Translations under genes and position numbers: made by a program | Shown here: positions 388 through 62,318 of the stretch, piece by piece | How positions within the stretch are numbered: the first letter of the stretch is position 1 | Layout of the letters: every line of letters starts with the position of its first letter | Assembly: GCA_949710005.1 (NCBI GenBank) | Contig: OX453286.1 | Coordinates: 6,964,450-7,028,449, forward strand | DNA length: 64,000 nucleotides | DNA from: Ricordea florida | Lineage: Eukaryota; Cnidaria; Anthozoa; Corallimorpharia; Ricordeidae | Reading direction: 5' to 3' | The notes under the pieces: model-generated | The model's input: only the letters and a program-made list of their open reading frames with translations | The model's database searches: none | Told to the model about the DNA's origin: nothing

Positions 388-999
388 ACTGAACAGTCAG
401 TTTGGCGGAGCTGTTGACTCGTCCCAGCAAATTCTCAGCTCTGCACATGTAAACTCCATCGTCTTCTGCTCTGACATCATTCAAAATCAGAGCGCCACTG
501 GACTCGACCACGTGGCGTCCAACAGGAAGCGATAAGTTGACCTTGGACCACGTGATCCGCGGAGCTGGGTTTCCATCCACTGTACATTTCAAGATGGCTG
601 TCTGACTTTGATTGACGGTCATCGCAACAGAAGACTCAACCAGAGATGGAGCCGAGATGGACTGGCCCGGTTCACCTTTCATGCCTTTTATGCCTTGTGG
701 TCCTGTTGGTCCCGGGGGTCCAGGATCTCCTCGTATTCCCGGATCTCCCTTTATTCCCATTGGTCCTTGAGGTCCTATCGGTCCGTGTTTCCCGGGAATG
801 CCTGGCTTACCTCTCCTTCCTCTGTTTCCTCTTGGTCCGTGGCGGCACAGTGTTTGATCCTTGGCACAGAATTGATTTTGCAGCGAATGGAGTTCTTGTC
901 TGATCAACTGCTTCATTTCGGAGGCATTTTGGGTGGTGTTTGACTGCAAACTGTCCAGTGAAGAGCTTCGTTTTTGTCTTGAATTACTCTCCATAAAAA
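388..999 (-). CDS. Copy A exon 2: furin site, collagen, Ig1
   Basis: The sequence runs from acceptor 'ctttacag' (1000-1007, reverse complement) to donor gtaagt (382-387). It encodes SRQKR, an Asn-Thr-Thr N-glycosylation site, two Cys before the collagen (FCAKDQTLC), 19 Gly-X-Y triplets and an Ig domain with paired Cys (LKCTVDG, YMCRAEN). The 612-nt length matches copy F and is 27 nt shorter than copies B, C and G. Confidence 0.85.
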
Positions 1000-2806
1000 C
1001 TGTAAAGTACAATCAGAACTAGAACCTTGAATCAGGTGTTACTCGTGCACATACAGAGCAGGCAGCGCAAGCTGTGCGATTAGGTGCTAACATCTGTTTT
1101 TCTGTGGCATTCCTAGAATTGTACCATCCCTGCTTAGTAATCTCTGAGAAACGTTTGATTTCATTTGAGTTCCATTTCAGTTAATTTGTCTTTTGAGTTT
1201 GCGGAACGACCTGGTTCGAAACTGACGTTCCAACGCGAACAGCGTGTGCGTCTGCACGCATTTTAAGCTACTTACAAGGAAAGGAAGTGGCCATAATTGC
1301 CCTGAAAATATTATTTTGAATCGAACTCTGAACGCTGAACACTGCTTCAACTGAGCTTCAACTTTTGTTGAAGACTCCTCAGTCCCCGCTCGGCTGCACA
1401 TTCACGACATCTATAGATAGATACATAGATTTATTGATAGACCACACAAACTTCCACTCACGCCCGCCCTGAGCGTGCACGACTAATTAGCTTCTACAAA
1501 ATAAACAAAAATCTTAATGACAGAATTGACGATATATTATTAAAGTAGATATGCTCACAACACCATATCCAGCAGTTTATTTTATTTCTATTCGCATTTC
1601 CTTCATCGCTATCCCTCATTTAGCCTCAAATGATCTTACTGTGCTTTTTGGAGCGTGAATTCAGGAAACGATAGGAAGGCGTGACCGTTACAGCTGTGTC
1701 ACGATGGTGAACTGCTTTTCTGATGTAGTGACGTAACTGTTATTCTTGTGTCACGATGGAGATCCAATCAAATCTTATCATGCGCTATAGCTTATATACA
1801 TTTTACAGCTAAAGTTTATGTTGATGGTCACGTTCGAATTTCGTAAGACTCTTTTCTATAATCTGCGCACAGAACACGTGGCTTAGTTATTTTTGTAAAG
1901 CGCATGTAACTTCCTTGTGTGCTGAAACGCTCAGAAGGAAAAGAGATCATACTGGGCACTTTGTCTCTGCAAACTCTTCTCATTTTTTGTGTTGATCTAG
2001 TTTGAAAGTGGAATTGCCACACTGCAAAACCTGGAAAACCTAGCCGTTTTTCGTCTTGGAATAAAACACCAAGTTAAATAGGAAAAGTTCCAAATACCGT
2101 CCATTTTGATCAAGAGAGAGAAAGTAAAACTTCCGGAACGCTGAACACTGAAGACTTTGCCTTTTAGTCATGCATAAAACAACACGGCGGTCCATCTAAT
2201 GTCTGGGCTTCGATTCACGAGGCCCTTCTAATCAAAGGCTTCTCCCAAGTATTATTACAATACAAAGCTATTTTTTATCAAATGAGCGCTTCCAGTTTAT
2301 AACATTCAAGAAATTTGGCCAAAAAGATTTTAAATGCTCGTCTTATGACTTCACTCACAATCTGATCGAAAAACAACGCAGCCGATCAATACTGTAAAGA
2401 GAACTCGCCTTCTGATCAGTTTTATAATAGACAGGGCTCAATTCTTAAGAAAACACCTCGACAGCTCTTAACCACTCACTAGATCTTATGAGGAAGGGGA
2501 GGCATTAAATACCAGAACACACTCTTATTATTTACCTCCTCTTTCTTTCAGCTGGCTGCGTGCCATAAACTGATATCTCACGTAATACTGTTGTACTTTA
2601 CCAAGGATTTCTTTCTCCATCTGATCACACAATGTTACTGAGTGTGAGATCAGTTCATGATGACGTTGCATCCTAAGTTCCATGCGAATTAGTGCCACAC
2701 AACACACAACAGACAGCATCAAACCTGACACTGAACACACACTGTACAATAGTTTGCTATCCCTTCTCTCCTGTCCATCTTCGCTTCCTTGATTCTTCAT
2801 GACCAA
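388..2806 (-). CDS. Copy A: collagen-Ig-fibrinogen-like membrane protein gene, 3' part outside window
   Basis: Exons 1 (2536-2806) and 2 (388-999) of the array gene are present. Exon 3 (Ig2-Ig3-fibrinogen-like) would lie left of base 1. Splice phases agree: exon 1 ends in phase 1 before gtaaat, and exon 2 starts after 'ctttacag' and ends in phase 1 before gtaagt. Visible parts are a cytosolic tail, one TM helix, a coil, the R-Q-K-R site, 19 Gly-X-Y triplets and an I-set Ig domain. It is the closest paralogue of copy F. Oddities are a Pro-to-Arg change that creates Arg-Gly-Asp inside the collagen, His instead of Pro after the second pre-collagen Cys, and a divergent exon 1 end ([17 protein letters not shown]). 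The 1.5-kb intron holds nothing I recognise; the short open frames in it are not conserved as protein in copy F. Confidence 0.8.
2536..2806 (-). CDS. Copy A exon 1: cytosolic tail, TM helix, juxtamembrane coil
   Basis: The exon starts with MVMKNQG and has a polar tail rich in charges. A hydrophobic segment of about 20 residues follows ([18 protein letters not shown]), then a charged helical region with one Cys ([10 protein letters not shown]). There is no cleavable signal peptide, so the topology is type II (N-terminus inside). It ends in phase 1 at donor gtaaat. Confidence 0.85.
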
Positions 2807-3140
2807 AACTGTTAAGTGTTTTTATCCCTTCAAATTATAAGCTTCAGTTTTGTGTGAAGAAAAATGGGGGTTTTTTGGTGATTTTCGCCCAATGAGACTC
2901 AACTATCCGAGTTCTTTGGTCCAGTTTTGGTTAATCAGTGCTTGATTTCGGCTTCCTCTGATCTTCACAGAATTTAAAGATAGCATAGTATATGTCCATG
3001 CGTGACGTATTGGTGATATACATATGAAGCTTATTTACCAGTTAAGGTCAAGGGTCTATTCGAATTTATCTTTATTTTACATTATAATATCTGTGTGTAT
3101 AATGATTCTTGGGTGACGAGTTCATCTCCGATTACCCTAA
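2807..3140 (-). promoter_or_regulatory. Conserved 5' flank of copy A
   Basis: This block upstream of exon 1 is conserved in the other copies (10528-10910, 18230-18500, 50788-51130, 58902-59280). It includes the shared words 'ttctttggtccag' and 'cagtgcttgatttcggct'. It probably contains 5' UTR and promoter. No TATA box or factor site can be assigned with confidence. A possible divergent small gene starts at 3235. Confidence 0.35.
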
Positions 3141-3234
3141 GTCAGACCTGATTTTCCTAGTCTTCTCTCTTTTGGTGGTCAGCTTTCAAATTATCATTTT
3201 TTCTTCCTGACTATATTAGGCAGATATAAGTACA

Positions 3235-3357
3235 ATGGCGAGCGAAGAAACGATATTTTTAGATCTCTTCGAGTGTAAAGACGGATTTCCCAACCACATC
3301 GAACGGGTGAGATATCAAGTTAAACACGGAAATAGCGTTGACGTTGCTAGTGCTTGA
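3235..3357 (+). CDS. Possible first exon of a divergent small gene (copy 1)
   Basis: An ATG opens a 40-codon frame starting MASEETIFLDLFEC. A GTGAGA donor in phase 0 lies after 24 codons (3307), so the coding exon may be only 3235-3306. It lies head to head with copy A exon 1, about 430 bp away. The same frame is preserved in the duplicate at 51217-51339 with a few amino-acid changes. I recognise no family and found no downstream exon. It may be an exon of an unmapped gene or chance. Confidence 0.3.
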   Translation: MASEETIFLDLFECKDGFPNHIERVRYQVKHGNSVDVASA

Positions 3358-6240: not shown

Positions 6241-6288
6241 AAGTTCTAATAACCTAAGAAAGGCGGAAAGGTGTTTTTATTTCTTAAG

Positions 6289-7433
6289 TTACTTTTTAGT
6301 TGCTCCATAACATTTGAATTTGCCCAATGTGTGAAAGCCTTTGGCTGAATAAATATTATTTCCAAACCTGAGTTGTCTTACAGGAAGATCTGACTTGTCA
6401 GTAAGCAGACCGCTGTCCTCACGCCATACGTTGTCACTCTTGTCACAGTTACAACCGTAGTTGGGATTTGCACAGGAGTTGGTCATCCCGCATGCGCACT
6501 TACCACTGCCAGGTGAGGCACCTCCCCAGTAAGTCATCTTATTAGAATCACGTGATACCCACCAAGCATAGCTATATCTAAATATCATTGAATTATAACA
6601 CTCATACTTGATAAACTGTTCACAGTGTGACGACACTCTGGTGAGACTCGCCAGCTGAGACAGACTCACTCCTGTGTATAAAATGTCACGTGAGTAACAC
6701 CCTGGAGGTTCGCATCCCTTCACCAATGTTCTGCTTTCACTGTCATGACTGATGACGGTCACGCCCGCTCCATTCTTGTCAGTCATGTCACAGTAAACAG
6801 TAAATGGGGCCAGGCCTTCCTCGCCATCTGGATCAATGACGTAATTTCCGCTTGCACTGCTGACATGTTTCTTTATCACGGAACAGGAAGTAGGAAAAGT
6901 AGGAGAATTGATCTTGACAGTGGCTTTTATCGTTGTCAGAGCGTTAGTTGCTTTGCAGCTGTAAGATCCTTGGTGTGATTTCTTTATGTGTGAAATGACC
7001 AGTGTCCCATTGACTAAGATATTAGAGTTTGCCGGTAGTGATGATTTGCCGTCTTTTTTCCACAAGACTGAAGGTTTCAAATCACTCTCGGCCAAACATG
7101 GCAGATTAATAGTGGATCCGGGAACTGGAGTTAGTTCTTTAGGAGGACGAACTTTGAACCGCAGACGAGAGAATATCATTAGTAAAACAGTGTCTGATGC
7201 TGTTCCCAGGATATTCTGTGCCTTACAAATGTATACTCCACCATCCTTTTTCATCGCATTGTTAACTGTCATTTCTCCCTTTCTTGTAACAACTCTGTTT
7301 TCTGGTAAATTATTAACCAATTTAGACCACGTGATTTTGGGTCGTGGCTGACCAATGACTGTGCAGTTCAAAGTGATCCTTTGGTTTTCTTCAGCCATCA
7401 GTTGGTTTACTGGCAGAATCACGTGTGGAGCGT
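6289..7433 (-). CDS. Copy B exon 3: Ig2 (type alpha), Ig3, CASPR-type fibrinogen-like domain
   Basis: The exon starts after acceptor 'tccacag' in phase 1 (T|AC = Tyr), reads [11 protein letters not shown], and ends at TAA. Ig2 has canonical Cys (LNCTVIG, YICKAQN) and Ig3 has LPCLAES and YSCKATN. The fibrinogen-like variable loops read [27 protein letters not shown] and NNIYSAKGF. Confidence 0.9.
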
Positions 7434-10400
7434 CTGTGGAACAATTTTAAGACATCAAGATAATTTAACAATGTATTTTAAAAAGCTAAAATTTTCAGCT
7501 TTAAAAACGCCCTTTTTGTAATGGTTTTGTGTGGCTTTTGTCCACTAGATTTGACCGCCTGTTACGTGGTCTACAGTTACGCATTGCAAACCTAATTTTT
7601 TGAAAGGCACTTGTGTTTAACAGCCGCATTTAATTCAACTTTCGTCGTTTCTTATGGATATGGGTTGGTGATGGTCAGCGGACCATGGTCGTCAAATAAG
7701 CTTGTTAAAGGCAACCTTCATCCCAGTCCAGACCATAATATTCTAGGGTTTTGTTTACTAGAAACTGTGAAGCAAATAGTTATCAACAGGGTCGCACAAC
7801 CAAACAAAATATCAAATGTGAATGAATAACTAAAGTTGGAAACCTTTGTTAACAGTCTAGCTGAATTTCAATACGAGAATGGCAGGTATGCTAGCAATTG
7901 TACACAAAACTGTAACAGCGTGGTCTTAGCAGAAATTTCACTAAACTTAACCATAGTTTGACAAATAAAATATAAAAATGCCAATTCACAATGCAGACGG
8001 ATACTGCATGTTTGCCATCACTAAGTTAGTTTAATGCAAATGCAATCAAAAAGTAAATTATTCTATTCTAAGTTCTGCAACTGTATTCAATACTTGGACT
8101 GTTCTTGGAGGTTGTAGTTATGATTTAAGCTAGTTCAATCATTGGAAGGGCATAAACTAAATTGTTACGAACGTTCACCGCATTTCAGTTCTCGATCGCG
8201 CGTCGATTAAGTATCGATTAGTTGCGTTTATGATGTAATAAGAGTAGTGCACGTGTTAAAGTTTATTAGAAGACAGTCAACAACGGTTATGTAAGTACGC
8301 CTTAAGAGTTTATAGTGTAAATCAAGTTCAAAGTCTTAACCTCCAGTATATTTTATGACTGTTATATTAGGAACCACTGTAGGCTCTAAGAATTTATTGT
8401 AACTGTGAACTCGGACAAGTTTTCGTCGACGGCTGTGAAGATTGTGCGACCTGAGAATCGACAGAGAATATTTCCCAAGGCTCAGAGCATCAAAGTGTGT
8501 TCAAATCAATATTAAAGTTCCTTGTGCTTATATGGTGTCGCTACTGACTACGATACTGAGGAATTGCCAGTCACATGGATAAAGTGATCTTAATGTTTTA
8601 GTGACATGTGCAGGAATCATCTGCGCTTTACTAGTTCCATTGGTCCCTTTATTATTGTTATTTTTCTATTATTCTCATCACTGATTGGATTAACAACGAT
8701 TCACGTTTGATAGCGGATGACAACAAAAATTTGAACAACAAAAAACAATGGACCGCAAACAACTAACTCCTATTACAAATCGAATAATTTTTTGGCTACA
8801 AATTTTCTAAATTCGTTAGAGGTCTTATTCCTCTTCTTCCTTAAATGTCAAGACTAAGGGCTGGTTCACACTTTGACATAAGCATAAGCATAAGCATAAA
8901 CATAAGCATAAGAAAAATATGTGTGAACCGGGGTTACATAAGCATAAGCAGAAGCATAAGAAAATGGAAAAAGTTCCATTCCTTGTGCTTATGCTTATGC
9001 TTATGCTTATGTAACCCCGGTTCCCACATATTTTTGTTATGCTTATGTTTATGCTTATGCTTATGCTTATGCTTATGCTTATGTTAAAGTGTGAACCAGC
9101 CCTAAATAAAACAATGAACCTTACAACTTACATTGAACAGTCAGTTTAGCTGAGCTGTTGACTCGTCCCAGCAAATTTTCAGCTCTGCACATGTAAACTC
9201 CATCGTCTTCTGCTCTGACATCATTCAAAATAAGAGCGCCACTGGACTCTACCACGTGGCGTCCAACAGGAAGCGATGAGTTGACCTTGGACCACGTAAT
9301 CCGCGGAGCTGGGTTTCCATTCACTGTACATTTCAAGATGGCTGTCTGACTTTGATTGACGGTCATTGCAACAGGAGACTCAAGCAGAACTGGAGCCGAG
9401 ATGGACTGGCCCGGTTCACCTTTCATGCCTTTTATGCCTTGTGGTCCTGTTGGTCCCGGGGGTCCAGGATCTCCTGGTATTCCCGGATCTCCCTTTTTTC
9501 CCATTGGTCCTTCAGGTCCTATCGGTCCGTGTTTACCAGGAGGTCCTATTGGTCCGGAATTTCCCGGTCTTCCTCGGCTGCCCGGTCTTCCCGGTCGTCC
9601 TCTGATTCCTTTTGCTCCGGGGCGGCACAGTGTTTCATCCTTGGCACAAAATTGATTCTGTAGCAGACGAAGCTCTTGTTTGATCAACAGTTTAGTTTCA
9701 ACGGCTGTTTGTTGTTGCAAATCATCGCTTGAAGAGCTTCGTTTTTTTCTGGATATTCTTTGCCATTGAGCTGAAAGAAATCAATCAAGACATATTGAGA
9801 AATCGTAAAAAAAGAGTAAACGACTAATAGAGAGCGATTTAGTACAGAAGAAACTACAGCGTCGAATTTTATACAACAAAGACTTCGTATATTTAGATTA
9901 CATTACGAACAAATGACAGTGGAAAAGTACTCAGGCTGTGTTTTCGCTTACGGCCAACTGATTATATTTTAACCTAACCATTTGTGATAGACAGGCGAAC
10001 TTGCTTTCTCGAACTCTCCGCTATCTCAAACTCAAACTCATTCCCTTGAATTGTTTTTTCAGTCATTTACCATCGGTTACCTCCACTGACCTCTGCTATC
10101 TGAAACTATTTTTCCTTTCCATTGAGAGTTCGAGATAGCGGTGTTCAACTGTAACTGTTTAACTCTTAGCCTGTTCCCTTGTTAGAGCACGGTGACAAAT
10201 GCACACATGCATCTTAAGAATCAAAGTGTAAGTACGAATTCTATAAATTATTTAATGAATACCTCTTAGGTCACTCCACTGGCTGCGTGCCATAACCTGC
10301 CATCTCCCGTGATACTGTTGTACTTTACCAAGGATTTCTTTCTCCATCTGATCACACAACTTTACTGATTGTGAGATCAGTTCATGATGACGTTGTATCC

Positions 10401-10527
10401 TAAGTTCCACGTGAATTAGTGCCACACAACACACAACAGACAGCACCAAACCTGACACTAAACACACATTGTACAATGGTTTGCTCTCGCTTCTGCTCTG
10501 TCCATCTTTGCTTCCTTGATTCTTCAT
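6289..10527 (-). CDS. Copy B: type II membrane collagen-Ig-Ig-Ig-fibrinogen-like protein (complete)
   Basis: The gene has three exons: 10263-10527, 9132-9770 and 6289-7433. Phases are consistent (1, 1) and the product is 682 residues. Approximate domain order is cytosolic tail 1-20, TM 21-40, helical stalk with Cys to 88, R-K-K-R at 96-99, Cys 130 and 137, collagen 140-210 (23 triplets), Ig1 to 301, Ig2 to about 393, Ig3 to about 485, and fibrinogen-like domain to the end. The last domain has [29 protein letters not shown] and YGCNCDK, which match the CASPR/CNTNAP fibrinogen-like domain rather than ficolins. The start is MKNQGSK; the copies beginning MVMK add two codons. An AATAAA lies a few bases after the stop. 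The likely role is a cell-surface or shed recognition or adhesion receptor; this is inferred from architecture only. Confidence 0.88.
7645..7790 (-). pseudogene. Ghost of a type-beta Ig2 exon inside copy B intron 2
   Basis: The block 'ttggtgatggtcagcgga' followed by 'ccatggtcgtcaaataag' and 'cttgttaaaggcaacctt' closely matches the type-beta Ig2 exon of copies C (about 15830-15960) and G. It lacks the first part of the domain and the frame is not usable. It lies upstream of the functional type-alpha Ig2 of copy B, so the locus once held both Ig2 types or exchanged them. Confidence 0.7.
8858..9102. mobile_element. MITE with GGGCTGGTTCACAC termini and (ATAAGC)n arms
   Basis: Nearly perfect inverted repeat: GGGCTGGTTCACACTTT at the left and its complement at the right, with TAA on each side. 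The arms consist largely of ATAAGC hexamer repeats, and an inner inverted word GTGTGAACCGGGGTTAC is also repeated. The TWA target site suggests a Harbinger-related element. It lies 30 bp from the exon 2 donor of copy B and could fold into a long hairpin in the intron RNA. Confidence 0.75.
9132..9770 (-). CDS. Copy B exon 2: furin site, collagen (23 triplets), Ig1
   Basis: Acceptor 'tttctttcag' is followed by CTCAATGGC; the donor is gtaagt at 9126-9131. The exon encodes [20 protein letters not shown], 23 uninterrupted Gly-X-Y triplets ending GMKGEPGQ, and an I-set Ig domain. The 639-nt length is identical in copies C and G. Confidence 0.9.
10263..10527 (-). CDS. Copy B exon 1: cytosolic tail, TM helix, coil
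   Basis: MKNQGSK starts a polar tail. The TM segment [18 protein letters not shown] is followed by [10 protein letters not shown], a Cys ([10 protein letters not shown]) and the conserved end [10 protein letters not shown]. The donor gtattc is in phase 1. Confidence 0.88.
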
Positions 10528-16003: not shown

Positions 16004-18229
16004 CTGCACAAAACATGAACATTAAAATATCTTGGAAAATGTTTACTTGAAGGTTTATTAACATGATAAGACCGTCAATTCTCTCTTTTTTTATTTGTGC
16101 TACCGTATCTAACACTTAACCTGTTGTAAGTTGTTGTTTTATGGTTGCAATAGATGGATAGTAGTTAATGTTCAGTTTGATTTTTGTAAAGCATTTTTGT
16201 CATTCCATTCTGCATCATTTCTTAATCAGTTTTGTTGTTGACGTTTTAGTTTCTGTTACAATCAATGGACGTTGTGATTTCAAATTTATTTGTTAATGTT
16301 TAATCTAGCTGTTAAGTTGGCGAAATATTTGATTTAACAGAGATTGTGATCTAAGGGCCAGTTACTCAATGGTTAATAGAAGACACAGATCGTATTTGAA
16401 TGAGCTAGTTTTTTTGTTTTCAAGTTTACGCGCAACCGCCTGGTCAAAACACTTCAGGTACGGTCTCTCCTTTGTTTAGTGCTCGATTTTTTTTATAATA
16501 GTCGTAGCTTGAATAGCGTATTATTTTGAAAGTTATTTTAAGTAATCGACAAAGTTTCAAACGCAATCAAAATCCGAATGATTAATAAAAGCTGTAACTT
16601 GAATTTTAGAATATTTGTATTACTATAGTATTAAAGGCAATTCCTGAGGCCGGTCGCAAGTTCTTTTTCATCCTTTGGCCGTCCACATCAATTTCGTTTT
16701 TGATTTGATTATTAATACAAAAGTAATAGGTCTACAGCCAAAAAGAAAAATAAAAAATACAAAACTGCGCGGATTGATGATTTCCACCTTGTCCACCACT
16801 TTGTTCACCAGATTTACTCTTTTGTCCTTACATTAGAATGCTCTCAAATTACAACTTACACTGAACACTCAGTTTAGCTGAGCTGTTGACTCGTCCCAGT
16901 AAATTTTCAGCTCTGCAGATGTAAACTCCAACGTCTTCTGCTCTGACATCATTCAAAATCAGAGCGCCACTGGACTCGACCACGTGGTGTCCAACAGGAA
17001 GCGATGAGTTGACCTTGGACCACGTGACTTTTGGAGTTGGGTTTCCATCCACTGTACATTTCAAGATGGCTGTCTGACTTTGATTGACAGTCATTGCAAC
17101 AAAAGACTCAAGCAGAGATGGAGCCGAGATGGACTGGCCCGGTTCACCTTTCATGCCTTTTATTCCTTGTGGTCCTGTTGGTCCCGGGGGTCCAGGATCT
17201 CCTGGTATTCCCGGATCTCCCTTTATTCCCATAGGTCCTCCAGGTCCCATCGGTCCGTGTTTACCAGGAGGTCCTATTGGCCCCGATTTTCCCGGTCTCC
17301 CTCGGCTCCCCGGTCTTCCCGGCCGTCCTCTGTTACCTTTTGCTCCAGGGCGGCACAGTGTTTCATCCTTGGCACAAAATTGATTCTGTAGCAGACGAAG
17401 CTCTTCTTTGATCAACTGTTTTGTTTCAACGGCTGTTTGTTGTTGCAAGTCATCGCTTGATGTGCTTCGTTTTTCTCTAGAAATTCTGTGCCATTGAGCT
17501 AAAAGAAATCAATCAAGACATATTGAGAAATCGTAAAAAAGAGTAAATGAGTAATAGAGAGCGATTTCGTACAGAAGAACTACAGCGTCGAATTTTATAC
17601 AACAAAGACTGCGTATATTTAGATTATATTACGAACAAATGACAGTGGCCAACTGATTATATTTTAACCTAATATTTTAACCTAACCGTCTTTGATAGAC
17701 AGACGAACTTGCTTTCTCGAACTCTCCGCTATCTCAAACTCAAACTCATTCCCTTGAATTGTTTTTTCAGTCATTTATCATCGGTTACCTGCAACCTCCG
17801 CTATCTTCAACTATTTTTCGTTTCCCTTGAGAGTTCGAAATAGCGGTGTTCAACTCTAACTATTTAACTCTTAACCTGTTAGAGCCTTTCATGGTGAAAA
17901 ATGCACACATGCATCTAAAGAAACAAATTACGAATTTTATAAATTATTCAATAAATACCTCTTAGGTCACTCCACTGGCTGCGTGCCATAACCTGCCATG
18001 TTCCGTGATACTGTTGTACTTTACCACGGATTTCTTTCTCCATCTGATCACGCAATGTTACTGAGTGTGAGATTAGTTCATAATGACGTTGTATCCTAAG
18101 TTCCATGTGAATTAGTCCCACACAACACACAACAGACAGCACCAAACCTGACACTGAACATACGTTGTACAATGGTTTGCTCTCGCTTCTGTTCTGTCCA
18201 TCTTTGCTTCCTTGATTTTTCATGACCAA
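14865..18229 (-). CDS. Copy C: type II membrane collagen-Ig-Ig-Ig-fibrinogen-like protein (complete)
   Basis: The exons are 17959-18229, 16860-17498 and 14865-16003, in phases 1 and 1, giving 682 residues. The order is cytosolic tail, TM ([18 protein letters not shown]), coil, R-E-K-R site, Cys pair, 23 collagen triplets, Ig1, Ig2, Ig3 and CASPR-type fibrinogen-like domain. Ig2 is type beta: it reads LNFTVAG and YKSKAEN, so both canonical Ig cysteines are absent. The juxtamembrane Cys seen in other copies is replaced ([10 protein letters not shown]). The fibrinogen-like loops are [27 protein letters not shown] and DLTGSERGY. The frame is intact and splice sites are canonical, so it is probably active. 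Confidence 0.87.
16860..17498 (-). CDS. Copy C exon 2: furin site, collagen, Ig1
   Basis: The acceptor 'tttcttttag' precedes CTCAATGGC. The exon encodes [21 protein letters not shown], 23 triplets and Ig1 with paired Cys. The donor is gtaagt at 16854-16859. Confidence 0.88.
17959..18229 (-). CDS. Copy C exon 1: cytosolic tail, TM helix, coil
   Basis: The exon starts MVMKNQG, with the TM helix at about residues 22-42, and ends [10 protein letters not shown] before donor gtattt in phase 1. The region between exon 1 and exon 2 (17499-17958) is intron, homologous to the same intron in B and G. Confidence 0.87.
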
Positions 18230-18870: not shown

Positions 18871-19104
18871 ATGCAATTGTGTAAACTAACCCTTTCATTG
18901 TATATCCTTACACGTACTTTCGAAAAACATATAATGGTGAAACAAGAAGCTTAATAACAATACAGTACATAACCTAAGACTACAAAGCAACAGCGAAGTT
19001 GCTAATGGTTAGATTCTGCTTTATATAGTGAAATGAGAAATTTGAATAACCAAAACTAATGAGATCTAGTAAAATATGCAAAAAATACTTTCGGTAATTA
19101 AAAG

Positions 19105-19512
19105 TTAGTTGTCAGTTGTACCATAACATTTGCATTTGCCCAAGGTGTGGTAGCATTTTTCCAAGCCTGTTACGTCTCCAAACCTGAGCTGTCTTACAAG
19201 AAGATCTGACTTGCCATTAAGGAGACCGCTGTCTTCACGCCACACGTTGTCATCCTTAACACAGTCGCAACCGTAGTTGGGATTTGCACAGCAGTTAGTC
19301 ATCCCGCATGCGCACCTACCACTGTCAGGTGAGGCTCCTCCCCAGTAAGTCATCTTACTAGAATCACGTGATACCCACCAGGCTTCGTTTCCATTAAAAA
19401 TTCTTGAGCCATAACACTCATATTTGATAAACTATTCACAGTGTGACGACACTGGTGAGACTCGCCAGCTGAGACAGACTCTCTCCTTTGTAGTGAATGT
19501 CACGTGAGTAAG
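19105..19512 (-). pseudogene. Copy D: broken fibrinogen-like fragment
   Basis: The C-terminal part of the CASPR-type domain is clear ([32 protein letters not shown]). Upstream, a Gln codon has become TAG (CE*FIKYECYG) and two bases are missing near 19460, shifting the frame. Similarity stops at about 19512, where Harbinger sequence begins. No Ig, collagen or TM exon follows. The variable loop reads GSRIFNGNEAWW, close to copy H. Confidence 0.85.
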
Positions 19513-19514
19513 AC

Positions 19515-20291
19515 CCTTCTGATTCTGAACGACCTCATTTTATGCAAGGAGGTAATTTATGAGAATCCATACAGTGCCAAAAAAAATCCATGCAGATTAG
19601 TACACTGTGGCAGAAAATTGCAGATAATCTCAAAAACATACATGATCTTCACTTCACTGTTGAAAAGAGATCGGTTCGTGATCACATTGCTATCCTGGTT
19701 CAGCGATTTATGAGACAACAAGTTCAAGAATTAAAAGAAAGTGGAACAAGACCAGAGCGTATTAAAGAGTTGGATTCTGCCATTGGGCAAATTATAACAA
19801 TGGAAGAATCTGCTGACTCTGAACAACAGGAAATCATTGACGAAAACAGAGAGAAGCTGCAGACAGGAAAAAGGCAGAGGATGTGCGCAAAAACGATAGA
19901 AACAATGGGAGAAACACAGAAAAGAAATTCTGAAGAGGGGAATACTCGAGCAAAGGAGAGCCGAAGAAATGGAAGCGGAGCAATGGAATACCTAAAAAGA
20001 ACTGAACAGGATCTGGAACTGAAAGGAGAAGAGTTAGAATTAAAAAAGCAAGAACATGAACGGTTGCAAACCAAACAGATGTTTAAAGTCATTATTGAAC
20101 AGCAGCAGGAAGTACAAAAGCACGAAAGGGGCAGCATGTCCCAGATGTTCAAAACCATGATTGAACAGCAACAACAATAGCACGGGCAGGTCCAGGATAT
20201 GCAGAAGTTGCTTTTGATGCAACAGCAAACCCAAACTCAGGCCATGATGGCAATAATAGAAAAACTTGCTCCCAAGCAATTTAATCCTTAA
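19515..20291 (+). pseudogene. PIF/Harbinger accessory Myb/SANT-like protein (degraded)
   Basis: The reading shows the trihelix/Myb-like DNA-binding pattern (LWQKIADNLKNI, FTVEKRSVRDHIAIL) followed by a long Gln/Glu/Lys-rich coiled coil. An in-frame TAG at 20178-20180 interrupts the Gln-rich end, and the frame resumes to 20291 (APKQFNP). Harbinger elements carry such a Myb-like protein convergent to the transposase, as here. The start is unclear; Met at 19590 is internal to the domain. Confidence 0.65.
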
Positions 20292-39967: not shown

Positions 39968-40101
39968 AAGTGACAACAAAATGAGGACAAACCAGGTGTA
40001 GTTAAAATCCATTTTTTATTTATGATTTGATTATGAAAGCGGAAAATGACGGTGTCTTAGATTGTGATCTTGTCTCATTTTGTTCTGCAATTTTTTCACA
40101 G

Positions 40102-40630
40102 TTGCTCGGCACATCATGGTCCCATTAAAACAAGTGGTGGCTGAAGAACAACAAATGATCACTATGACCTGCACAGTCATTGGTCAGCCGCAACCGAAAA
40201 TCACGTGGTCTGAGGCATTTGATAAATTACCGAGAAAAAGAGTTGTTACTAGAAAGGGAGAAATGACAATTAACAATGTGATGGAGGAGTGTACATTTGT
40301 AAGGCACAGAATATCCTGGGAACAGCATAACACACTGTTCAACCGGTGATGTTCTCTCGTCTGCAGTTCGAAGTTCGTCCTCTCCTAAAGGACTGACCCC
40401 AGTGCTTGGGTCAAGTGTTTATTTGCCATGTTTGGCCGAGTGTGATCTTAAACCTACAGTGATGTGCATAAAGGATGGCAAATCTTCACTAAAACTCTAA
40501 TTAATTAAACTTAATATTCTAGTTAATGGAACACTGGTCATTCCACACAAAAAGAATTCACACGATGGATCTAACACCTGTAAAGCAACTAACGCTAGTA
40601 CAAATTTTACTGAAGATCGCATTATTTAGT
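40102..40630 (+). pseudogene. Inverted remnant: type-alpha Ig2 plus part of Ig3
   Basis: An acceptor 'ttcacag' is kept and the reading LKQVVAEEQQMITMTC matches the alpha Ig2 of copies B and H. A deletion near the second Ig Cys shifts the frame, and Ig3 traces follow (LGSSVYLPCLAE, TCKATNA) with stops. No fibrinogen-like domain follows. It is on the strand opposite to the array. Confidence 0.8.
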
Positions 40631-40790
40631 TTAGAAACAACCAATAAAACAACAGCTAGCCACAATTCAATTCTAGATGGATTAGCAGAAGATTAAAAAG
40701 AAAAAATTACTTTGTGATGGAATCCATGTTATTTGTAAATTGACGGTTTCTCTTTTACTTATATCGCACTCTTGATGTTTTATACAGTTG

Positions 40791-40896
40791 CAGGAGCCCA
40801 TTACCCGGAGCGTGCAACTACCATACTAAGTCTGTGAAACGTGCAACTGCTATAGGTTTATCTAACGACGTTTTCACAAGTAAGGTTATTTTTAGA
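40791..40896. mobile_element. Fragment of the CAGGAGCCC MITE
   Basis: It shares CAGGAGCCCATTACCCGG and 'gttttcacaagtaaggtta' with the complete element at 53929-54300. It lies between the two inverted Ig remnants. Confidence 0.7.
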
Positions 40897-40907
40897 GCTC
40901 CTGACAG

Positions 40908-41460
40908 TTGCTCCTCGCCTCGCATTGTTGTCTAATCGAGTGATGGCTCAAGAAGGACAGAACGTTACTATTAACTTTACTTTTGCTGGGAAACCAAACC
41001 CTGGAAGATTATGGCCTAGACTGGGAGGAAGGTTACCGTTAACAAGCTCGTTTCATGACAAAGGACGGCTGACCATCACCAACGTTTCCGTAAGAGACGG
41101 TGGAACATACGAAAGTAAAGCAGAAAATATTCTGGGTATAACATCAGACACTGTTCAACTGGTGATATTTTCTCTTCTGCGGTTCAAAGTTCCTCCTCCC
41201 AAAGAACTGACTCGAGTGCTTGGTCCACTGTTTATCAACCATGTTTGGCCGAGAGTGATCTGAAACCTTCAGTCACGTGGATAAAGAATGACAAATCTTC
41301 ACTTCCGGCAAAATCTAATGTTCTTCTAAATGGAACACTGGTCATTCCACACATAATGAAATCACATCAAGGATCTTACACCCGTAAAGCAACTAACGCT
41401 CTGACAACGATATAAGCCACTGTCAAGATCAATTCTCAAACCGCAACTTCCTGTTCCATG
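40908..41460 (+). pseudogene. Inverted remnant: type-beta Ig2 plus part of Ig3
   Basis: The acceptor 'ctgacag' and the reading [20 protein letters not shown] match the type-beta Ig2 of copies C and G, including Phe in place of the first Ig Cys and Ser in place of the second (YESKAEN). Ig3 follows with a frameshift near 41225 and a TAA in place of an internal codon near 41412. The fibrinogen-like domain is missing after about 41460. Confidence 0.82.
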
Positions 41461-42000
41461 ACTCCTGTTAGGGAACACGGGAACAAAAACTGGTGAAAAC
41501 TCTATAGAAGGGGGTTGCGAAATTGAGGGGGGGCGGGTACATGGTAAGCAGATATTTTATGGGGAACAAATATGGAAAAGGTGCGGGTACATGGGAAAAT
41601 ATGGCAATTTTGGAAGGGAACAAGGACCCCCCTGGGAGACCTTCAGCACTAACCCACTATAAGACGAGTCAGTAACAACAGTAGGTTGATTGAAGGATTA
41701 CCACATTACAATGGAAAAGGTTACCGGGGTTAAATACCTGACCAAAATTGAATATAGAAGGTATGGAGGTCAGAACTTAGGCTTGGGCCTTTCCTTGAAA
41801 GGTGTATTAAGTATCTCAGTCCCTAAAAAAGGCAAAAAACTGAAAGGTAAAGAAATCACCCATACGTGAATGATAGCCGGATTGTTTTGGGTGTTTCGGG
41901 TGAAGAACACAAGAAAAAAAAAACCGCTAACAGGGTAAGGAACCAATAAAACAGGGGTATCAAAACGAGCGGCACCATCCCATGACGAACGCCTGCCACT
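41461..42000. other. Spacer with G-rich tract
   Basis: There is a G-rich stretch at about 41505-41640 ('gggggttgcgaaattgaggg'). I see no gene and no recognisable repeat family. Confidence 0.4.
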
Positions 42001-46875: not shown

Positions 46876-50787
<3,912 letters not shown>

Positions 50788-53928: not shown

Positions 53929-54300
53929 CAGGAGCCCATTACCCGGAGCGTGCAACTCCCATACTAGGTCTGTGAAACGGCGTTTTCACAAGTAAGGTTT
54001 TTTTAGATCGTCTCTCCCGCGAATTGGTTCGGGAGAGCCAATCGCAAACTGGTGCATGATTGATATGAAGCATGATAACCGCCTGTAGCCACAGCGAACA
54101 CTGCCGACATACACGAGTCTTCATCGGAGTGTTCGGACAGCATTTCTGACGATAATCAAGGTATTTACACAGAGAGTAGTAGTAGAGACAGCGGAAACAA
54201 CTTATTTTCGCGGGAGAAGCCGCTCCAAAAATAACCTTACTTGTGAAAACGCCGTTGCATGAACCTGTAGCAGTTGCACGCTCCGGGTAATGGGCTCCTG
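53929..54300. mobile_element. Nested MITE with CAGGAGCCCATTACCCGG termini
   Basis: The long, nearly perfect inverted ends include 'gagcgtgcaact' and 'acggcgttttcacaagtaag'. Direct repeats GCTGCCC lie on both sides (53922-53928, 54301-54307). A fragment of the same family is at 40791-40896. Confidence 0.8.
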
Positions 54301-55551
54301 GCTGCCCACAATATGTTTTTTCCTTTATATTTATCGTTTTGCCATCAAATTTGGCTCAGTTACTCATGGGAGGCTTCTCTACAAACCTATCGAGGCTTTT
54401 TTTATTTTGATAAATATTGCTGAAGTTATTCCAAGTTAAACTTTTGGTAGAATCATTTTGTTGCTATGGAAACGTAATTTGCCAAAAACCAAAATTGCCC
54501 AATAGGTTTGTAGAGGTGTGTATGTAGTATCATTGCATGAAGTATTAGGCTTGCAATGTAAATAGAATTGAAAAAAGCATGGGGGGGCGTGAAATTAGTA
54601 CAAAAACAGCAGTTCAAGTGGTTTTGTTAATAATTAACCAGGATTTGCATATTATGGTATGTTACCCGTTGTCATGATAGCTTATGTTCTACTTTAACTT
54701 CATGCAAAATTCTGTATCGATACATTACATAGCTAAAGTTTTCTGAGCTTTACAATTTGATACACATTTGGGCTCAAAATCTAACCAGACTCCCCCCATA
54801 TGTTCAAGTCGTTTTAGTAACTTAAGAGAAATACGACTTCAGCAGTGAAACCACTTGTTGTCAGATGTCCTCACTGGGAACTAACTGAATCATCTGTTGT
54901 TATTTCAGTGTGCACGAGGCAGCCCATGACACACCTTACTTTGTACTTGTAACTCGTACAAATCTTTCCCTTTTTTACTCCGGTTGAGGGGCTTCAATCA
55001 AGCAGCGACAATCACAACCTTGAAGATTACAATCAATTGAAATTTTAAAAGAATTGATTATTATAAGTTTTGTGTCGTAAATTGAAGTAAATTAGTTAAA
55101 CTCAAGAAAAAAGTAACGCTCTGATGGCGTTTCATTTTAAACAAATTATTAGATTTATAGTCAGACCTAAGGCTCGGGAATTCTATAATACGTAAGACTG
55201 GAAGAATAATTGGGTGGTCATTATCCTATTATTCCTACTCGAACATTTTCTTTATTCCTTTATCCAAGCAAACAAATCTCATTACGCTGTTGAAAAAAAT
55301 CCACTTATTCCGGACAATGTAATCACCTATTCCAAAAGCAGTCGTTATTACACCCCATAAAATGGCATTCAGTATTCCATTATTCCAACAAAAAAAATCC
55401 TCTATTGATATTCTGTTATTCCAGTTCACACCTCCCCACCTCCACCACCCCGTTTTCCCCTATAAAAATCTGCGAAAGTGCACTGTACCACCAGACTTAT
55501 GGTAATAAGTTTTGATAACCTAAGAAAGGCGGAAAGGTATTATTCTTTACG

Positions 55552-56699
55552 TTACTTTTTAGTTGCTCCATAACATTTGAATTTGCCCAATGTGTGAAAG
55601 CCTTTGGCTGAATAACGATTATCTCCAAACCTGAGCTGTCTTACAGGAAGACGCAACTTGTCACTAAGAAGACCGCTGTCCTCGCGCCATACCCTGTCAT
55701 TCTTGTCACAATTACAACCGTAGTTGGGATTTGCACAGGAGTTGGTCATCCCGCATGCGCACTTACCACTGTTAGGTGAGGCTCCTCCCCAGTAAGTCAA
55801 CTTCACAGAATCACGTGATACCCACCAACCATACACACCATGACCTAATAATACTGAATCATAACACTCATACTTGATAAACTGTTCACAGTGTGACGAC
55901 ACTCTGGTGAGACTCGCCAGTTGAGACAGACTCGCTCCTGTGTAGTGAATGTCACGTGAGTAACACCCTCGAGGAAAGCATCTGTTCACCAATGTTCTGC
56001 TTTCACTGTCATGACTGATGACGGTCACGCCCACTCCATTCTTGTCAGTCATGTCACAGTAAACAGTAAATGGAGCCAGGCCTCCCTCGCCATCTGAATC
56101 AATGACGTAATTTCCGCTTGCACTGCTGACATGTTTGTTTATCACGGAACAGGAAGTAGGAAAAGTAGGAGAATTGATCTTGACAGTGGCTTGTATCGTT
56201 GTCAAAGCGTTAGTTGCTTTGCAGGTGTAAGATCCTTGGTGTGATTTCTTTATGTGTGAAATGACCAGTGTTTCATTGACTAAGATATTAGAGTTTTCCG
56301 GAAGTGATGATTTGCCGTCCTTTTTCCACAAGACGGAAGGTTTCAAATCACTCTCGGCCAAACATGGCAGATTAATAGTGGATCCGAGAACTGGAGTCAG
56401 TTCTTTAGGAGGACGAACTTTGAACCGCAGACGAGAAAATATCATTAGCAAGACAGTGTCTGATGCTGTTCCCAGGATATTTTCTGCTTTACATTTGTAT
56501 ATTCCACCGTCTCTTATTGACACGTTGGTGATGGTCAGCAGTCCATGGTCGTCAAATGAACTTGTTAAAGGCAACCTTCCTCCCAGTCTAGACCATAATA
56601 TTCCAGGGTTTGGTTTCCCAGCAACAGTGAAGTTAAGAGTGATGTTCTGTCTTTCTTCAGCCATCAATCGATTGGACAACAATGCGAGGCGAGGAGCAA
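55552..56699 (-). CDS. Copy G exon 3: Ig2 (type beta), Ig3, fibrinogen-like domain
   Basis: The acceptor 'ttttgaacag' precedes TTGCTCCTCGCC. The frame is uninterrupted and ends CYGATKK, as in copy B. Intron 2 (56700-57503) holds no gene. Confidence 0.88.
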
Positions 56700-58901
56700 C
56701 TGTTCAAAACATCAACAGTGAAATATCTTGGAAAGTGTTTACTTAAAGGTCTATTAAACATGATAAGACAGTCAATTCTCTTTTTCCATTTGCGCTACTC
56801 TATCTAACACTTAACCAGCTGTTATAAGCTGTTGTTTTCTGGGTACAATAGATGGAGTGTGGTTAAAACAATGTAGTTAATGTTCAGTTTAATTTGCATA
56901 AAGGATTTTTGTCATTCCCGCATCATTTTTCAATCAGTTTTGTTGTGGACATTTTGGTTTCTTTTACAAGCAATGGACGTTGTAATTTCAAATTTATTTG
57001 TTAGTGTTTAATCTAGCTGTCACGTTGGAGAAATTTTTTATTTAACAGAGATTGTGATCTAAGAGACAGTTACTCAATGGTTAGCAGAAGACACAGATCG
57101 TATTTGAATGAGCTAGCTTTTTGTCTTTACCTTTTTGGTACGGTCTCTCCTTTGATTAGAGTTCGATTTTTCTATAATAGTCCTAACTTGAATCGCGTAT
57201 TCTTTTTAAAGCCGGTTATTTTAAGTAATAAACAAGCTTTCAAACGCAATCGAAATCCGAATGATTAATACAAGCTGTAAAATCAAAATGGAAATTTCCA
57301 AGGCCGGTCGCAAGTGCTTTTCAATCCTTTGACCGTCCACATCAATTTTCGCTTTTGATTTGATTATTAATACGAAGCTAATAGGTCTACAACAAAAAAG
57401 AAAACTAATAAATACAAAACTGCGCGAATTAATAAATTGCACATCGCTCACCACTTGGTTCACCAGATTTCTGAAATAGTTGGCCTTTAAAATTACAACT
57501 TACACTGAACACCAAGTTTAGCTGAGCTGTTGACTCGTCCCAGTAAATTTTCAGCTCTGCACAGGTAAACTCCATCGTCCTCTGCTCTGACATCATTCAA
57601 AATCAGAGCGCCACTGGACTCTACCATGTGGCGTCCAACAGGAAGCGATGAGTTGACCTTGGACCACGTGACCTGTGGTGTTGGATTTCCATCCACTGTA
57701 CATTTCAAGATGGCTGTCTGACTTTGATTGACGGTCATTGCAACGGGAGACTCAAGCAGAGATGGAGCCGAGATGGACTGGCCCGGTTCACCTTTCATGC
57801 CTTTTATGCCTTGTGGTCCTGTTGGTCCCGGGGGTCCAGGATCTCCTGGTATTCCCGGATCTCCCTTTATTCCCATTGGTCCTTCAGGTCCTATCGGTCC
57901 GTGTTTACCAGGAGGTCCTATTGGCCCCGATTTTCCCGGTCTCCCTCGGCTCCCCGGTCTTCCCGGTCGTCCTCTGTTTCCTTTTGCTCCGGGGCGGCAC
58001 ATTGTTTCATCCTTGGCACAAAATTGATCCTGTAGCAGACGAAGCTCTTGTTTGATCAACTGTTTTGTTTCAACTGCTGTTTGTGGTTGCAAATCATCGC
58101 TTGAAGAGCTTCGTTTTTGTCTAGACATTCTGTGCCATTGAGCTGAAAGAAATCAATCAAGACAACACAGGCGAAATCGTAAAAAAGGGTAAATGACACA
58201 TAGAGAGCGATTTTGTACAGCAGAAAGTATAGCGTCGAATTTTACACAACAAAGACTGCGTATATTTAGATTATATTACGAACAAATGACAGTGGAAAAG
58301 TACTGCTGTGTTTTCGCTTACGGCCAACTGATTATATTTTAACCTAACCGTTTCAGATAGACAGACGAACCTTGCTTTCTCGAACTCTACGCTATCTCAA
58401 ACTCAAACTCGTTTCTCTTGGATTGTTTTTTCAGTCATTCATCATCGGTTACTTCCAACTTTCGCTATCTCGAAATATTTTCCGTTTCCCTTGAGAGTTC
58501 GAGATAGCGGTGTTCAACTGTAACTATTCAACTCTTAGCCTGTTCCCTTGTTAGAGTCTTTCATGTTGACAAATGCACACATGCGTCTTAAGAATCAAAG
58601 TGAAAGTACGAATTCTATAAATTATTCAATAAATACCTCTTAGGTCACTCCACTGGCTGCGTGCCATAACATGCCATCTCCCGTGATACTGTTGTACTTT
58701 ACTAAGGATTTCTTTCTCCATCTGATCACACAATGTTACTGAGTGTGAGATCAGTTCATGATGACGTTGTATCCTAAGTTCCACGTGAATTAGTGCCACA
58801 CAACACACAATAGACAGCACCAAACCTGACACTGAACACACATTGAACAATGGTTTGCTCTCGTTTCTGTTCTGTCCATCTTTGCTTCCTTGATTCTTCA
58901 T
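55552..58901 (-). CDS. Copy G: type II membrane collagen-Ig-Ig-Ig-fibrinogen-like protein (complete, mosaic)
   Basis: The exons are 58637-58901, 57504-58142 and 55552-56699, with phases 1 and 1, giving 683 residues. The domain order is as in copy B, with an R-Q-K-R site and 23 collagen triplets. Ig2 is type beta (LNFTVAG) but keeps the second Cys (YKCKAEN), leaving an unpaired Cys. Ig3 and the fibrinogen-like domain are of the B type ([24 protein letters not shown]). Intron 2 and the Ig2 half match copy C, while the 3' half and 3' flank match copy B. The loops are [28 protein letters not shown] and DNRYSAKGF. The gene is probably active. Confidence 0.88.
57504..58142 (-). CDS. Copy G exon 2: furin site, collagen, Ig1
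   Basis: Acceptor 'tttctttcag' precedes CTCAATGGC, and the donor is gtaagt. It reads [21 protein letters not shown], 23 triplets and Ig1 (YLCRAEN). Confidence 0.88.
58637..58901 (-). CDS. Copy G exon 1: cytosolic tail, TM helix, coil
   Basis: It starts MKNQGSK, with [20 protein letters not shown], and ends [10 protein letters not shown] before donor gtattt, phase 1. Intron 1 (58143-58636) is collinear with that of copies B and C. Confidence 0.87.
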
Positions 58902-59645: not shown

Positions 59646-61173
59646 ACTGGGCCAACAGTGATTGGCTGTGTGCTGTCGTGGTTGCCCTGCCGATAACTTG
59701 GCGAAACTGAAAAAAGCACGCCATATTTCAAAAAGGACAACAACTGCCAGAAACAGCAAAGGCTTGTAGACTACTACCAGGTGCTGTAGATCACACCAGA
59801 TAAAAGTAAAATTGGCGCAAAAAGATGAGCTACTCTAAGAAATAAAGCAACTTGACCACCTTAACTCATTTAAAATAAATAATTCCTTTCTAAAGCAACT
59901 ACTCAGAGCAAAGATGAGAAAAACCGAAACATACTCAATACAAAGCGATTTGGGAGAGTTGGGAAATATTTTAAAACACTGAAAGATAAAACGCTCATGA
60001 AAAGCGTACGAGCGATCCATAAATGCTACTATGATAACCTTTTATACATTATTTTCAGTGCTGTGATATGATCAGTTTTCTTGAGCAAAAGCATAACTTC
60101 AGACCACTGACACTTCACTTTGTTTATAAGACAAACGAAACCGTAAGGTATATTGCAACTACTGATGTACAGTAATACATCAAACTCGAGACACAGTGTT
60201 TCATCACATATCAAACACCAAGAAGAGCGTGGAAAATTCGACGAGCAGTGGAGTATTCTTGCGAATTTCGACGTGTTTAAAAAGTGATAAAATACTTGCA
60301 TCGAGTGTTTGACTTTGCTTCTCAAAAGAAACGATTTGGAAAGACAAAATTAGAGATGTCAAAACGAGCCCTGTTTCATCAAATATCCCAACATGTCACC
60401 AGCTCTGATTTTAACTTACGCATCCTTACTGAGTATAAGAAGTCTCTATTAAGACTTGAGTAATTTATGCTGATTTGTAAATAGGTCTTGCCAGCGCTGT
60501 AGGCTCTTCGGCAATTAACATGTTAAAGTTGAGTAAATGGGCCTTAATAAATCAATATCAAACGAAGTAATATCATTTTCACTCAAGTAAGACTTCGAGA
60601 GTTCCAGGAAACAGCAAGAATTTCGTTCTCAGCCTTACTCTTGACAGAACGTTTTTATTTTGTTTACTTTACAAAACGCTAATTATCCCTACTGTCAAGA
60701 ATTCAAGTATGTCTCAAGCTTAAAAAAATTAATTACATCCACGTTTTCGAAAGCACCGTGTATTTCCATAAGCTTTGGCTGCTCCTCAATATTTGGGCAA
60801 CCCCCACCTCCCCCGCCCTTCCGCAAACCTGTAACACCCCCGCTTGTTAGTATTGTCTCCAAACTAGAGATGCCTTACAGTAAGATCTAACTTGTCAACA
60901 ACGATACTGCTGTCTCTACGCACGCCACACGTTTTCAATTACAACAGTTGCTGGAATGACATTAAGTAAGCTTAGTCTTTATACTATCTTTACACATACT
61001 TATGAAACACGTATTAGGCTTAAAGGCAAACATGAAGAATTGCAAGAACACAACTACATTACAACAGTAATGTTGCTTAAATGGTACTGCTTTATATTCA
61101 CTAACGGCTAGAAATTCGAATAACCAACAATAGTAGTGTCTAATGAAAGTTGCAGAAAGGGCTTTTGTTGAAG
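59646..61173. other. Spacer between copies G and H
   Basis: This is collinear with 44950-46660 near copy F and partly with 18500-19000 near copies C and D. Apart from the ghost at 60770-60965, no gene is seen. Confidence 0.5.
60770..60965 (-). pseudogene. Ghost fibrinogen-like fragment 3
   Basis: The words 'gatgccttacagtaagatct', 'aacttgtcaacaacgatact' and 'cacgccacacgtttt' align in order with the C-terminal coding region of exon 3 in copy H. The frame is destroyed. Confidence 0.55.
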
Positions 61174-62318
61174 TTACTTGTCAGTTGTACCATAACATTT
61201 AAATTTGCCCAGTGTGTGATAACCTTTTTCTACTGAGCCTCCTGTATCTCCAAACCTGAGCTGTCTTACAGGAAGATCTAACATGTTGGTAAGAAGACCG
61301 CTGTCCTCACGCCATACGTGGTCATTCTTGTCACAGTTACAACCGTAACTCGTAACTGCACAGGAGTTGGTCATCCCGCATGCGCACTTACCACTGCCAG
61401 GTGAGGCTCCTCCCCAGTGAGTCATCTTATTAGAATCACGTGATACCCACCAAGCTTTGTTTCCATTAAAAATCCTTGAATCATAACACTCATACTTGAT
61501 AAACTGTTCACAGTGTGACGACACTCTGATGAGACTCGCCAGTTGAGACAGACTCGCGCCATTGTAGAGAATGTCACGTGAGTAACACCCACTTGAGTCG
61601 CATCCGTTCACCAATGTTCTGCTTTCACTGTCATGACTGATGACGGTCACGCCCACTCCATTCTTGTCAGTCATGTCACAGTAAACAGTAAATGGAGCCA
61701 GGCTTCCCTCGCCATCTGGATCAATGATGTAATTTCCGCTTGCACTGCTGACCTGTTTCTTTATCACGGAACAGGAAGTGGAAGTTGGAGAATTGATCTT
61801 AACAGTGGTTTCTATCGTTGTCAGAGCGTTAGTTGCTTTACAGGTGTAAGATCCTTGGTGTGATTTCTTTATGTGTGAAATGACCAGTGTCCCATTGACT
61901 AAGATATTAGAGTTTGCCGGAAGTGATGATTTGCCGTCCTTTTTCCACAAGACTGAAGGTTTCAAATCACTCTCGGCCAAACATGGCAGATTAATAGTGG
62001 ATCCGAGAACTGGAGTCAGTTCTTTAGGAGGACGAACTTTGAACCGCAGACGAGAGAATATCATCAGTTGAACAGTGTCTGATGCTGTTCCCAGGATATT
62101 CTGTGCCTTACAAATGTATACTCCACCATCCTTTTTCATCACATTGTTAATTGTCATTTCTCCCTTTCTTCTAACAACTCTGTTTCTTGGTAATTTATCA
62201 ACCGATTTGGACCATGTGATTAGTGGTTGTGGCTGACCAATGGCTGTACAGTTCATGGTGACACTTTGTCCTTCCTCAGCCATCACTTGTTTTAGTGGCA
62301 GAGCTATGTATGGAGCGT
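61174..62318 (-). CDS. Copy H exon 3: Ig2 (type alpha), Ig3, fibrinogen-like domain; upstream exons outside window
   Basis: The acceptor 'gttctacag' precedes ACGCTCCATAC, giving YAPYIALPLKQVMAEE in phase 1. Ig2 has both Cys (MNCTAIG, YICKAQN), and Ig3 and the CASPR-type domain are intact to CYGTTDK and TAA. The loops are [27 protein letters not shown] and DTGGSVEKGY. Exons 1 and 2 are not found up to base 64000. The upstream intron is homologous to copy B intron 2, which predicts exon 2 just beyond the edge. Confidence 0.85.

Follow-up and report, generated by a model that had tools for sequence, protein, structure and literature searches.

A coral tandem array predicted to encode CniFL-like collagen-immunoglobulin receptors with a procollagen C-propeptide-like head

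The DNA analysed here is a 64,000-nucleotide stretch of the Ricordea florida genome (C15:6964450-7028449 of 537.8 Mb, C15 being contig OX453286.1), referred to as the window. It carries tandem copies of a three-exon gene whose product combines a hydrophobic N-terminal segment, a short collagen stretch, three immunoglobulin (Ig) domains and a C-terminal head. In our judgement the window probably belongs to an extensive coral gene array whose products form a sister family of the CniFL proteins, i.e. type II receptors that would be trimerised by collagen, shed, and bind their ligands through loops of a head resembling the procollagen C-propeptide (COLFI) domain. An earlier note on this DNA had found no nameable family for the architecture. 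This cannot be upheld, as the layout is that of CniFL, a family reportedly first described from the Aiptasia genome, and its canonical form is encoded elsewhere in the same genome (L070, see below).

Gene structure and protein layout

Three genes (B, C and G) are complete, with GT-AG introns, phase 1 junctions and one terminal stop, and are accompanied by partial copies. Pfam matches, splice sites and exon-3 remnants (ghosts) bear out the earlier proposal of one architecture in tandem copies. The proposed span, 388-62318, fits the exon borders exactly: read on the minus strand, gene H exon 3 begins at 62318 and gene A exon 2 ends at 388. The features are as follows.

388..999, minus: gene A exon 2; RQKR site, 20 Gly-X-Y, Ig1
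2536..2800, minus: gene A exon 1; N-terminus and hydrophobic (transmembrane, TM) segment
6289..7433, minus: gene B exon 3; Ig2, Ig3, C-terminal head, stop
6292..6888, minus: gene B head; COLFI-like domain with three hypervariable loops
9132..9770, minus: gene B exon 2; RKKR site, 24 Gly-X-Y, Ig1
10263..10527, minus: gene B exon 1; N-terminus and hydrophobic segment
14865..16003, minus: gene C exon 3; Ig2 type without first cysteine, Ig3, head
16860..17498, minus: gene C exon 2; REKR site, 24 Gly-X-Y, Ig1
17959..18223, minus: gene C exon 1
19102..19518, minus: ghost; 3' part of exon 3 (head only), one internal stop
40089..41461, plus: inversely oriented ghosts; truncated pieces of exon 3, one per Ig2 type
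46890..47501, minus: gene D exon 2; RQKR site, 20 Gly-X-Y, Ig1
50517..50781, minus: gene D exon 1
55552..56699, minus: gene G exon 3; mosaic, Ig2 C-like, Ig3 like B and H
57504..58142, minus: gene G exon 2; RQKR site, 24 Gly-X-Y, Ig1
58637..58901, minus: gene G exon 1
61174..62318, minus: gene H exon 3; Ig2, Ig3, head

Exon 1 (88 residues) starts five minus-strand genes, and each of its five open reading frames (ORFs) has one hydrophobic segment (Kyte-Doolittle 2.2-2.6 over 19 residues). By hydropathy, these ORFs thus have the TM segment found in most CniFL members. This supports the membrane segment of the earlier type II assignment; the orientation itself is putative. All five genes with an exon 2 have the furin-like site noted before (RxKR at residue 96), which is followed by a neck with two cysteines spaced by seven residues, then by 20-24 Gly-X-Y triplets and an Ig domain. 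Both neck cysteines are kept in 14 of 15 homologues that include exon 2. A Pfam scan of ten window ORFs, the tenth being a ghost, confirmed collagen and three Ig domains: Collagen (PF01391) scored 39.8-62 bits in all five exon-2 ORFs (cut-off 27.2), while I-set and Ig_3 exceeded their cut-offs in these five and in all four exon-3 ORFs, with one Ig domain (clan CL0011) in exon 2 and two in exon 3. The latter is a single exon encoding both Ig domains and the head. No Rfam family reached its gathering threshold in the window.

That the three exons form one gene is the probable reading, because full-length proteins of about 680 amino acids are predicted in Oculina, Montipora, Porites, Stylophora and Acropora, in line with the proteome search that had been suggested; because 16 unnamed JGI entries of 586-694 amino acids among the best 120 of 1793 protein matches, with a longest contig of 2.1-3.9 kb, look like cDNA; and because an intronless copy exists (L069, C10:20631600-20634100). 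The last has a 729-codon open frame running through exon 1, 2 and 3 sequences and is 68% identical to B, with the exon 2/3 junction as predicted and extra residues at the exon 1/2 junction. It is presumably a retrocopy and may be a working gene; a poly-A tract was not seen in the adjoining bases inspected.

Exons 2 and 1 of gene H are placed just past the window by tblastn (C15:7028606-7029211 and 7029798-7030055). Gene A has no same-strand exon 3 between itself and the next gene, so that the idea of a gene merely running off the window was rejected. For gene D, no near-full exon 3 was found downstream; the sole remnant is the truncated one at 19102-19518, 27 kb away. The exons common to A and D show weak constraint (omega 0.50, Fisher p 0.04), and the two genes could therefore make short one-Ig products. 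A segmental duplication pairs A and B (380-7245) with D and G (46882-56511) at 89-94%, G having a different Ig2.

The head and the same stalk with other heads

The earlier note had called the head CASPR-type and fibrinogen-like, a label resting on the names that sources give to its relatives ("neurexin-4-like", "contactin-associated protein 1-like"). Fibrinogen_C (PF00147) reaches 16.8-20.7 bits in the four exon-3 ORFs, under its cut-off of 22, and COLFI (PF01410) scores 22.4 bits for the window head, likewise under its cut-off (26.2); among ten relatives scanned, three pass the latter (30.4, 28.2 and 26.5 bits). Searches of the PDB with the single sequence returned fibrinogen beta chains only, at E 0.11 or worse. 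Profile A2 placed fibrinogen beta (1.4e-5) just above COL1A1 (2.4e-5), whereas profile A4, the members of which were picked partly for COLFI-likeness, reversed this order (COL1A1 C-propeptide, E 1.5e-5). As these orders differ, sequence alone does not decide, and the fold search does.

The gene B head, modelled alone with AlphaFold2 (AF2) from 62 sequences, gave a pLDDT of 81.1 and a pTM of 0.78; in a model of the whole exon 3 from a 30-sequence alignment, Ig2 and Ig3 were good and the head had a pLDDT of about 25. With the head model, the top 17 of 710 Foldseek matches were all procollagen C-propeptides, while FGL1 reached only E 5.9e-3 (TMq 0.26). A VIA search also leads to procollagen C-propeptides, the head aligning from chain residue 40 on; no fibrinogen-type chain was among the 50 matches listed, which does not exclude one. 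Judging from the predicted fold, the head is better described as COLFI-like than as ficolin-type; structure prediction had been proposed as a check on the assignment.

The same stalk carries other heads elsewhere in this genome. L070 (C1:41333400-41339700) is a canonical CniFL with an RQRR site, collagen and Ig1, Ig2-Ig3, and a Fibrinogen_C exon of 250.5 bits; its head is on its own exon, preceded by an additional intron relative to the window genes. The two stalks align well (collagen-Ig1, 38% over 208 amino acids, E 2e-36; Ig2-Ig3, 36% over 164, E 6e-36), whereas the alignment of the heads is confined to 46 amino acids (46%). Stalks of the window genes are 31-41% identical to those of L070 and L071 (E 8e-26 to 3e-43). 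A genome-wide PF00147 scan, in which 150 of 173 candidates were scored, lists 89 places, none of them on C15. Of the near-full Fibrinogen_C domains, 16 lie at C1:41.08-41.37 Mb, two of them containing a stop, and four at C1:44.86-44.97 Mb; at C7:4.29-4.37 Mb, eight that are shorter at the C-terminus lie alongside collagen-Ig exons. Two loci end in a discoidin domain instead: at C1:23.32 Mb it follows stalk exons (46.0 bits, cut-off 28.2), and at C4:30.02 Mb it follows an Ig2-Ig3 exon (60.8 bits), with a collagen-Ig1 exon upstream (C4:30023864-30024412). Further collagen-Ig exons lie on C5, at C1:10.7-12.0 and elsewhere. Whole clusters may each have one head, as suggested by the one locus read per cluster.

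The head also occurs apart from this stalk. P0149 is listed with C-type lectin and EGF domains and combines them with the same head (78% identical), so that the head seems to have been shuffled into other proteins. More head clusters, at 55-69% identity and with no adjoining Ig match, lie at C12:2.10-2.22, C12:20.79-20.82, C4:22.70 and C7:4.76-4.88 Mb.

The available text of PMC5094078 includes Fibrinogen_C in the definition of CniFL and describes members with mostly one TM domain and three Ig domains. Like CniFL, the window genes encode TM, collagen, three Ig domains and a globular head, are multi-copy in hexacorals and have homologous stalk exons; they differ in the COLFI-like head, which lies below the Fibrinogen_C cut-off, and in having Ig2, Ig3 and head in one exon. 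We therefore weighed whether these are simply members of the published family with a fibrinogen domain diverged below the Pfam threshold. The order of domains agrees with that of published CniFLs (PMC5094078, as far as its accessible part goes), the stalks are homologous, and the Fibrinogen_C match covers the first quarter of the head, which contains the part alignable with the canonical head. On the other hand, the defining domain is under cut-off in all four exon-3 ORFs of the window, the remainder of the head cannot be aligned with the canonical one, the predicted fold is nearest COLFI, and the canonical kind is separate, with its additional intron. We regard this explanation as unlikely.

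Other known systems share parts of the layout. Fibrillar collagens have a long triple helix; the C-propeptide fold of fibrillar procollagen would be common to the window head, whereas the window genes have 20-24 triplets, a membrane segment and Ig domains. Gliomedin and ectodysplasin have the type II layout, the furin-type site and the short collagen in common with them, and carry olfactomedin or TNF heads, which were not among the Pfam matches of the four exon-3 ORFs (E 0.01). Mollusc FREPs are likewise diversified and join Ig domains to a fibrinogen-related terminus, Fibrinogen_C, without collagen or TM segment; the window genes have both, with a head below the Fibrinogen_C cut-off. In CNTNAP/CASPR and neurexin IV, where the likeness lies in source-given names of relatives only, discoidin, LamG and EGF domains surround the fibrinogen-like domain; all three are absent from the Pfam scan of the window ORFs. 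The Cthrc1 family was rejected, having a C1q-like head, and the part of PMC7058181 at hand contains neither "immunoglobulin" nor "transmembrane". PMC12549020 (partial text) reports an expansion of fibrinogen-related proteins in an anemone but does not mention the present layout, and PMC5446238, in the portion available, does no more than cite the expansion of ficolin-like proteins. Among the best 120 of 1793, 3720 and 2605 matches, none is named as an anemone protein, which does not imply absence. A literature search, mostly short of full text, found no account of a collagen-Ig receptor with a COLFI or discoidin head. The layout is hence already known; what appears to be new relative to the literature searched is the head with its predicted fold, the occurrence of parallel heads and the pattern of the loops.

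Array size, mosaics and variable loops

The array is about ten times as long as the window. C15:6943012-7639062 (696 kb) contains 61 exon-3 matches, of which 38 are near full (28 on the minus and 10 on the plus strand) and 36 of these stop-free, as well as 44 exon-2 matches, 39 stop-free and some short at the N-terminus. These counts are lower bounds; they exclude two remnants farther left on C15. Thirty-five of the 38 near-full exon 3s pair with an exon 2 within 9 kb, and 30 pairs are stop-free; pairs were assigned greedily, and one or more of them are probably swapped. In 250 kb that were read (10 kb of them N), we found 12 three-exon sets, two with a damaged exon 2. The 36 stop-free exon 3s in one array compare with 0-7 CniFLs per anemone transcriptome in the accessible text of PMC5094078. 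The exon-3 protein of gene B has an identical copy 235 kb away (C15:7206087-7207226), which is not a plain assembly duplicate because the distance between exons 2 and 3 differs.

Mosaics were analysed in the 36 stop-free near-full exon 3s, leaving aside two near-full ones with stops and 23 partial ones. Thirteen have an Ig2 with the first Ig cysteine and 23 an Ig2 without it. Genes B and C agree in 61% of bases in Ig2, but in 83-90% in Ig3 and head. Gene G is a mosaic as proposed earlier, with an Ig2 93% identical to that of C and an Ig3 96% identical to those of B and H at the nucleotide level. Identities between gene pairs in four segments correlate weakly (r 0.11-0.36), as expected after much exchange.

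Variability in the head is concentrated in three loops (31 of 199 residues), which account for 18 of the 25 most variable positions in 36 heads of R. florida. The same loops hold 17 of 25 both in 22 Oculina heads and in 12 Montipora heads from two species; the Oculina set comprises 22 of 25 named matches (two head-only proteins and P0244 were left out) and possibly includes isoforms. In the AF2 head model, the variable stretches span turns between strands. Such a pattern is what a recognition family might show and strengthens that interpretation. The ghosts, mosaics and signs of rapid evolution described in the earlier note are borne out; the immune, allorecognition or symbiont-related roles that it named would be candidate functions.

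Several results weigh against our reading. Mean omega over 630 pairs is 0.40 (Ig2), 0.41 (Ig3) and 0.47 (head), so that most of the protein is constrained, and outside the three hypervariable (HV) stretches the head has an omega of 0.11-0.40. On a tree of 35 unique heads, HV2 showed 139 nonsynonymous and 24 synonymous changes (omega 1.94, P 0.001), a P value that is optimistic because the stretches were picked after viewing the alignment, in a test that ignores recombination; HV1 (omega 1.22, P 0.26) and HV3 (0.82, P 0.88) fit neutrality. The furin-type site is RxKR or RxRR in 12 of the 15 homologues with exon 2, the other three (RxTR or RxIR) missing the basic P2 residue. Foldseek superposes the head on COLFI only loosely (rmsd 5.0-10.6, TMq 0.48-0.60). 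Two of the ten head relatives exceed the Fibrinogen_C cut-off, with 28.1 and 22.3 bits, the former also matching in the genome-wide scan, and sources list PF00147 for P0013, P0242 and P0244; the border to fibrinogen domains is therefore not sharp, which also favours the assignment to CniFL proper.

The predominance of purifying selection would also suit structural or adhesive matrix proteins, i.e. short membrane collagens with a C-propeptide-like head that expanded for skeleton or mesoglea, and so would the combination of collagen with a COLFI-like fold and the adhesion-protein names that sources give to some homologues. From general knowledge, 36 stop-free exon 3s, exchange of Ig2 and the same variable loops in three genera would be unusual for matrix proteins, and we consider this origin quite improbable. 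An allorecognition locus, with polymorphic self-labels or receptors instead of receptors for microbes, would fit the large mosaic array, the hypervariable loops and the near-identical duplicates, yet the furin-like site and the ficolin-like relatives seem to point to soluble pattern recognition, and we give it very little credence.

Other elements of the window and proposed function

The window also contains a non-LTR (long terminal repeat) retrotransposon (34613-37971, plus strand) with a 954-codon frame (reverse transcriptase, 137 bits; weak endonuclease match) followed by an overlapping second frame without Pfam match. A C-type lectin domain (38125-38571, plus strand, 88.8 bits) lies directly behind it. 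A tandem repeat with a period of about 2.87 kb (25898-33485) includes the same 143-codon frame twice; 25898-29265 and 28764-32150 agree at 93.8%, with a weaker third copy to 33485. There is also a GAGT microsatellite (49531-49604, 18.5 copies), and a 148-codon open frame (24849-25295, plus strand) recalls an apple/PAN module by eye, with no Pfam match.

For the proposed CniFL sister family, we suggest that the short collagen helix behind the two-cysteine neck would trimerise the protein, and that the three Ig domains would form a stalk lifting the terminal COLFI-like head, in the place where CniFL has a ficolin-type fibrinogen head. Cleavage at RxKR, between membrane and collagen, by a furin-type protease would release a soluble multimer, the three head loops that differ between paralogues would bind a ligand (a microbial, symbiont or self surface), and tandem duplication, together with gene conversion and the swapping of Ig2 types, would renew the repertoire. 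An immune role may be considered from anemones, where ficolin homologues with TM and Ig domains increase along with complement genes during Vibrio infection (PMC7654579, available portion) and CniFLs are expressed more highly in aposymbiotic animals (PMC4840205, likewise in part). Being data on receptors with fibrinogen heads, they may not apply here, which adds to the reservations above.

More tentatively, corals may have combined one ancestral stalk with at least three heads (ficolin-type fibrinogen, COLFI-like and discoidin), apparently in clusters of their own, the C-propeptide fold having been co-opted for variable recognition, with three CDR (complementarity-determining region)-like loops under diversifying selection and with exchange of Ig2. 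Counts of coral ficolin-like receptors based on Fibrinogen_C only miss a branch. Corals are without antibodies and yet must sort symbionts, pathogens and kin; the size of the array, the variable positions in three loops, and the other-headed stalks as an internal control make coral recognition directly testable. If true, this would be an unusual case of a collagen-assembly domain turned into a variable recognition head.

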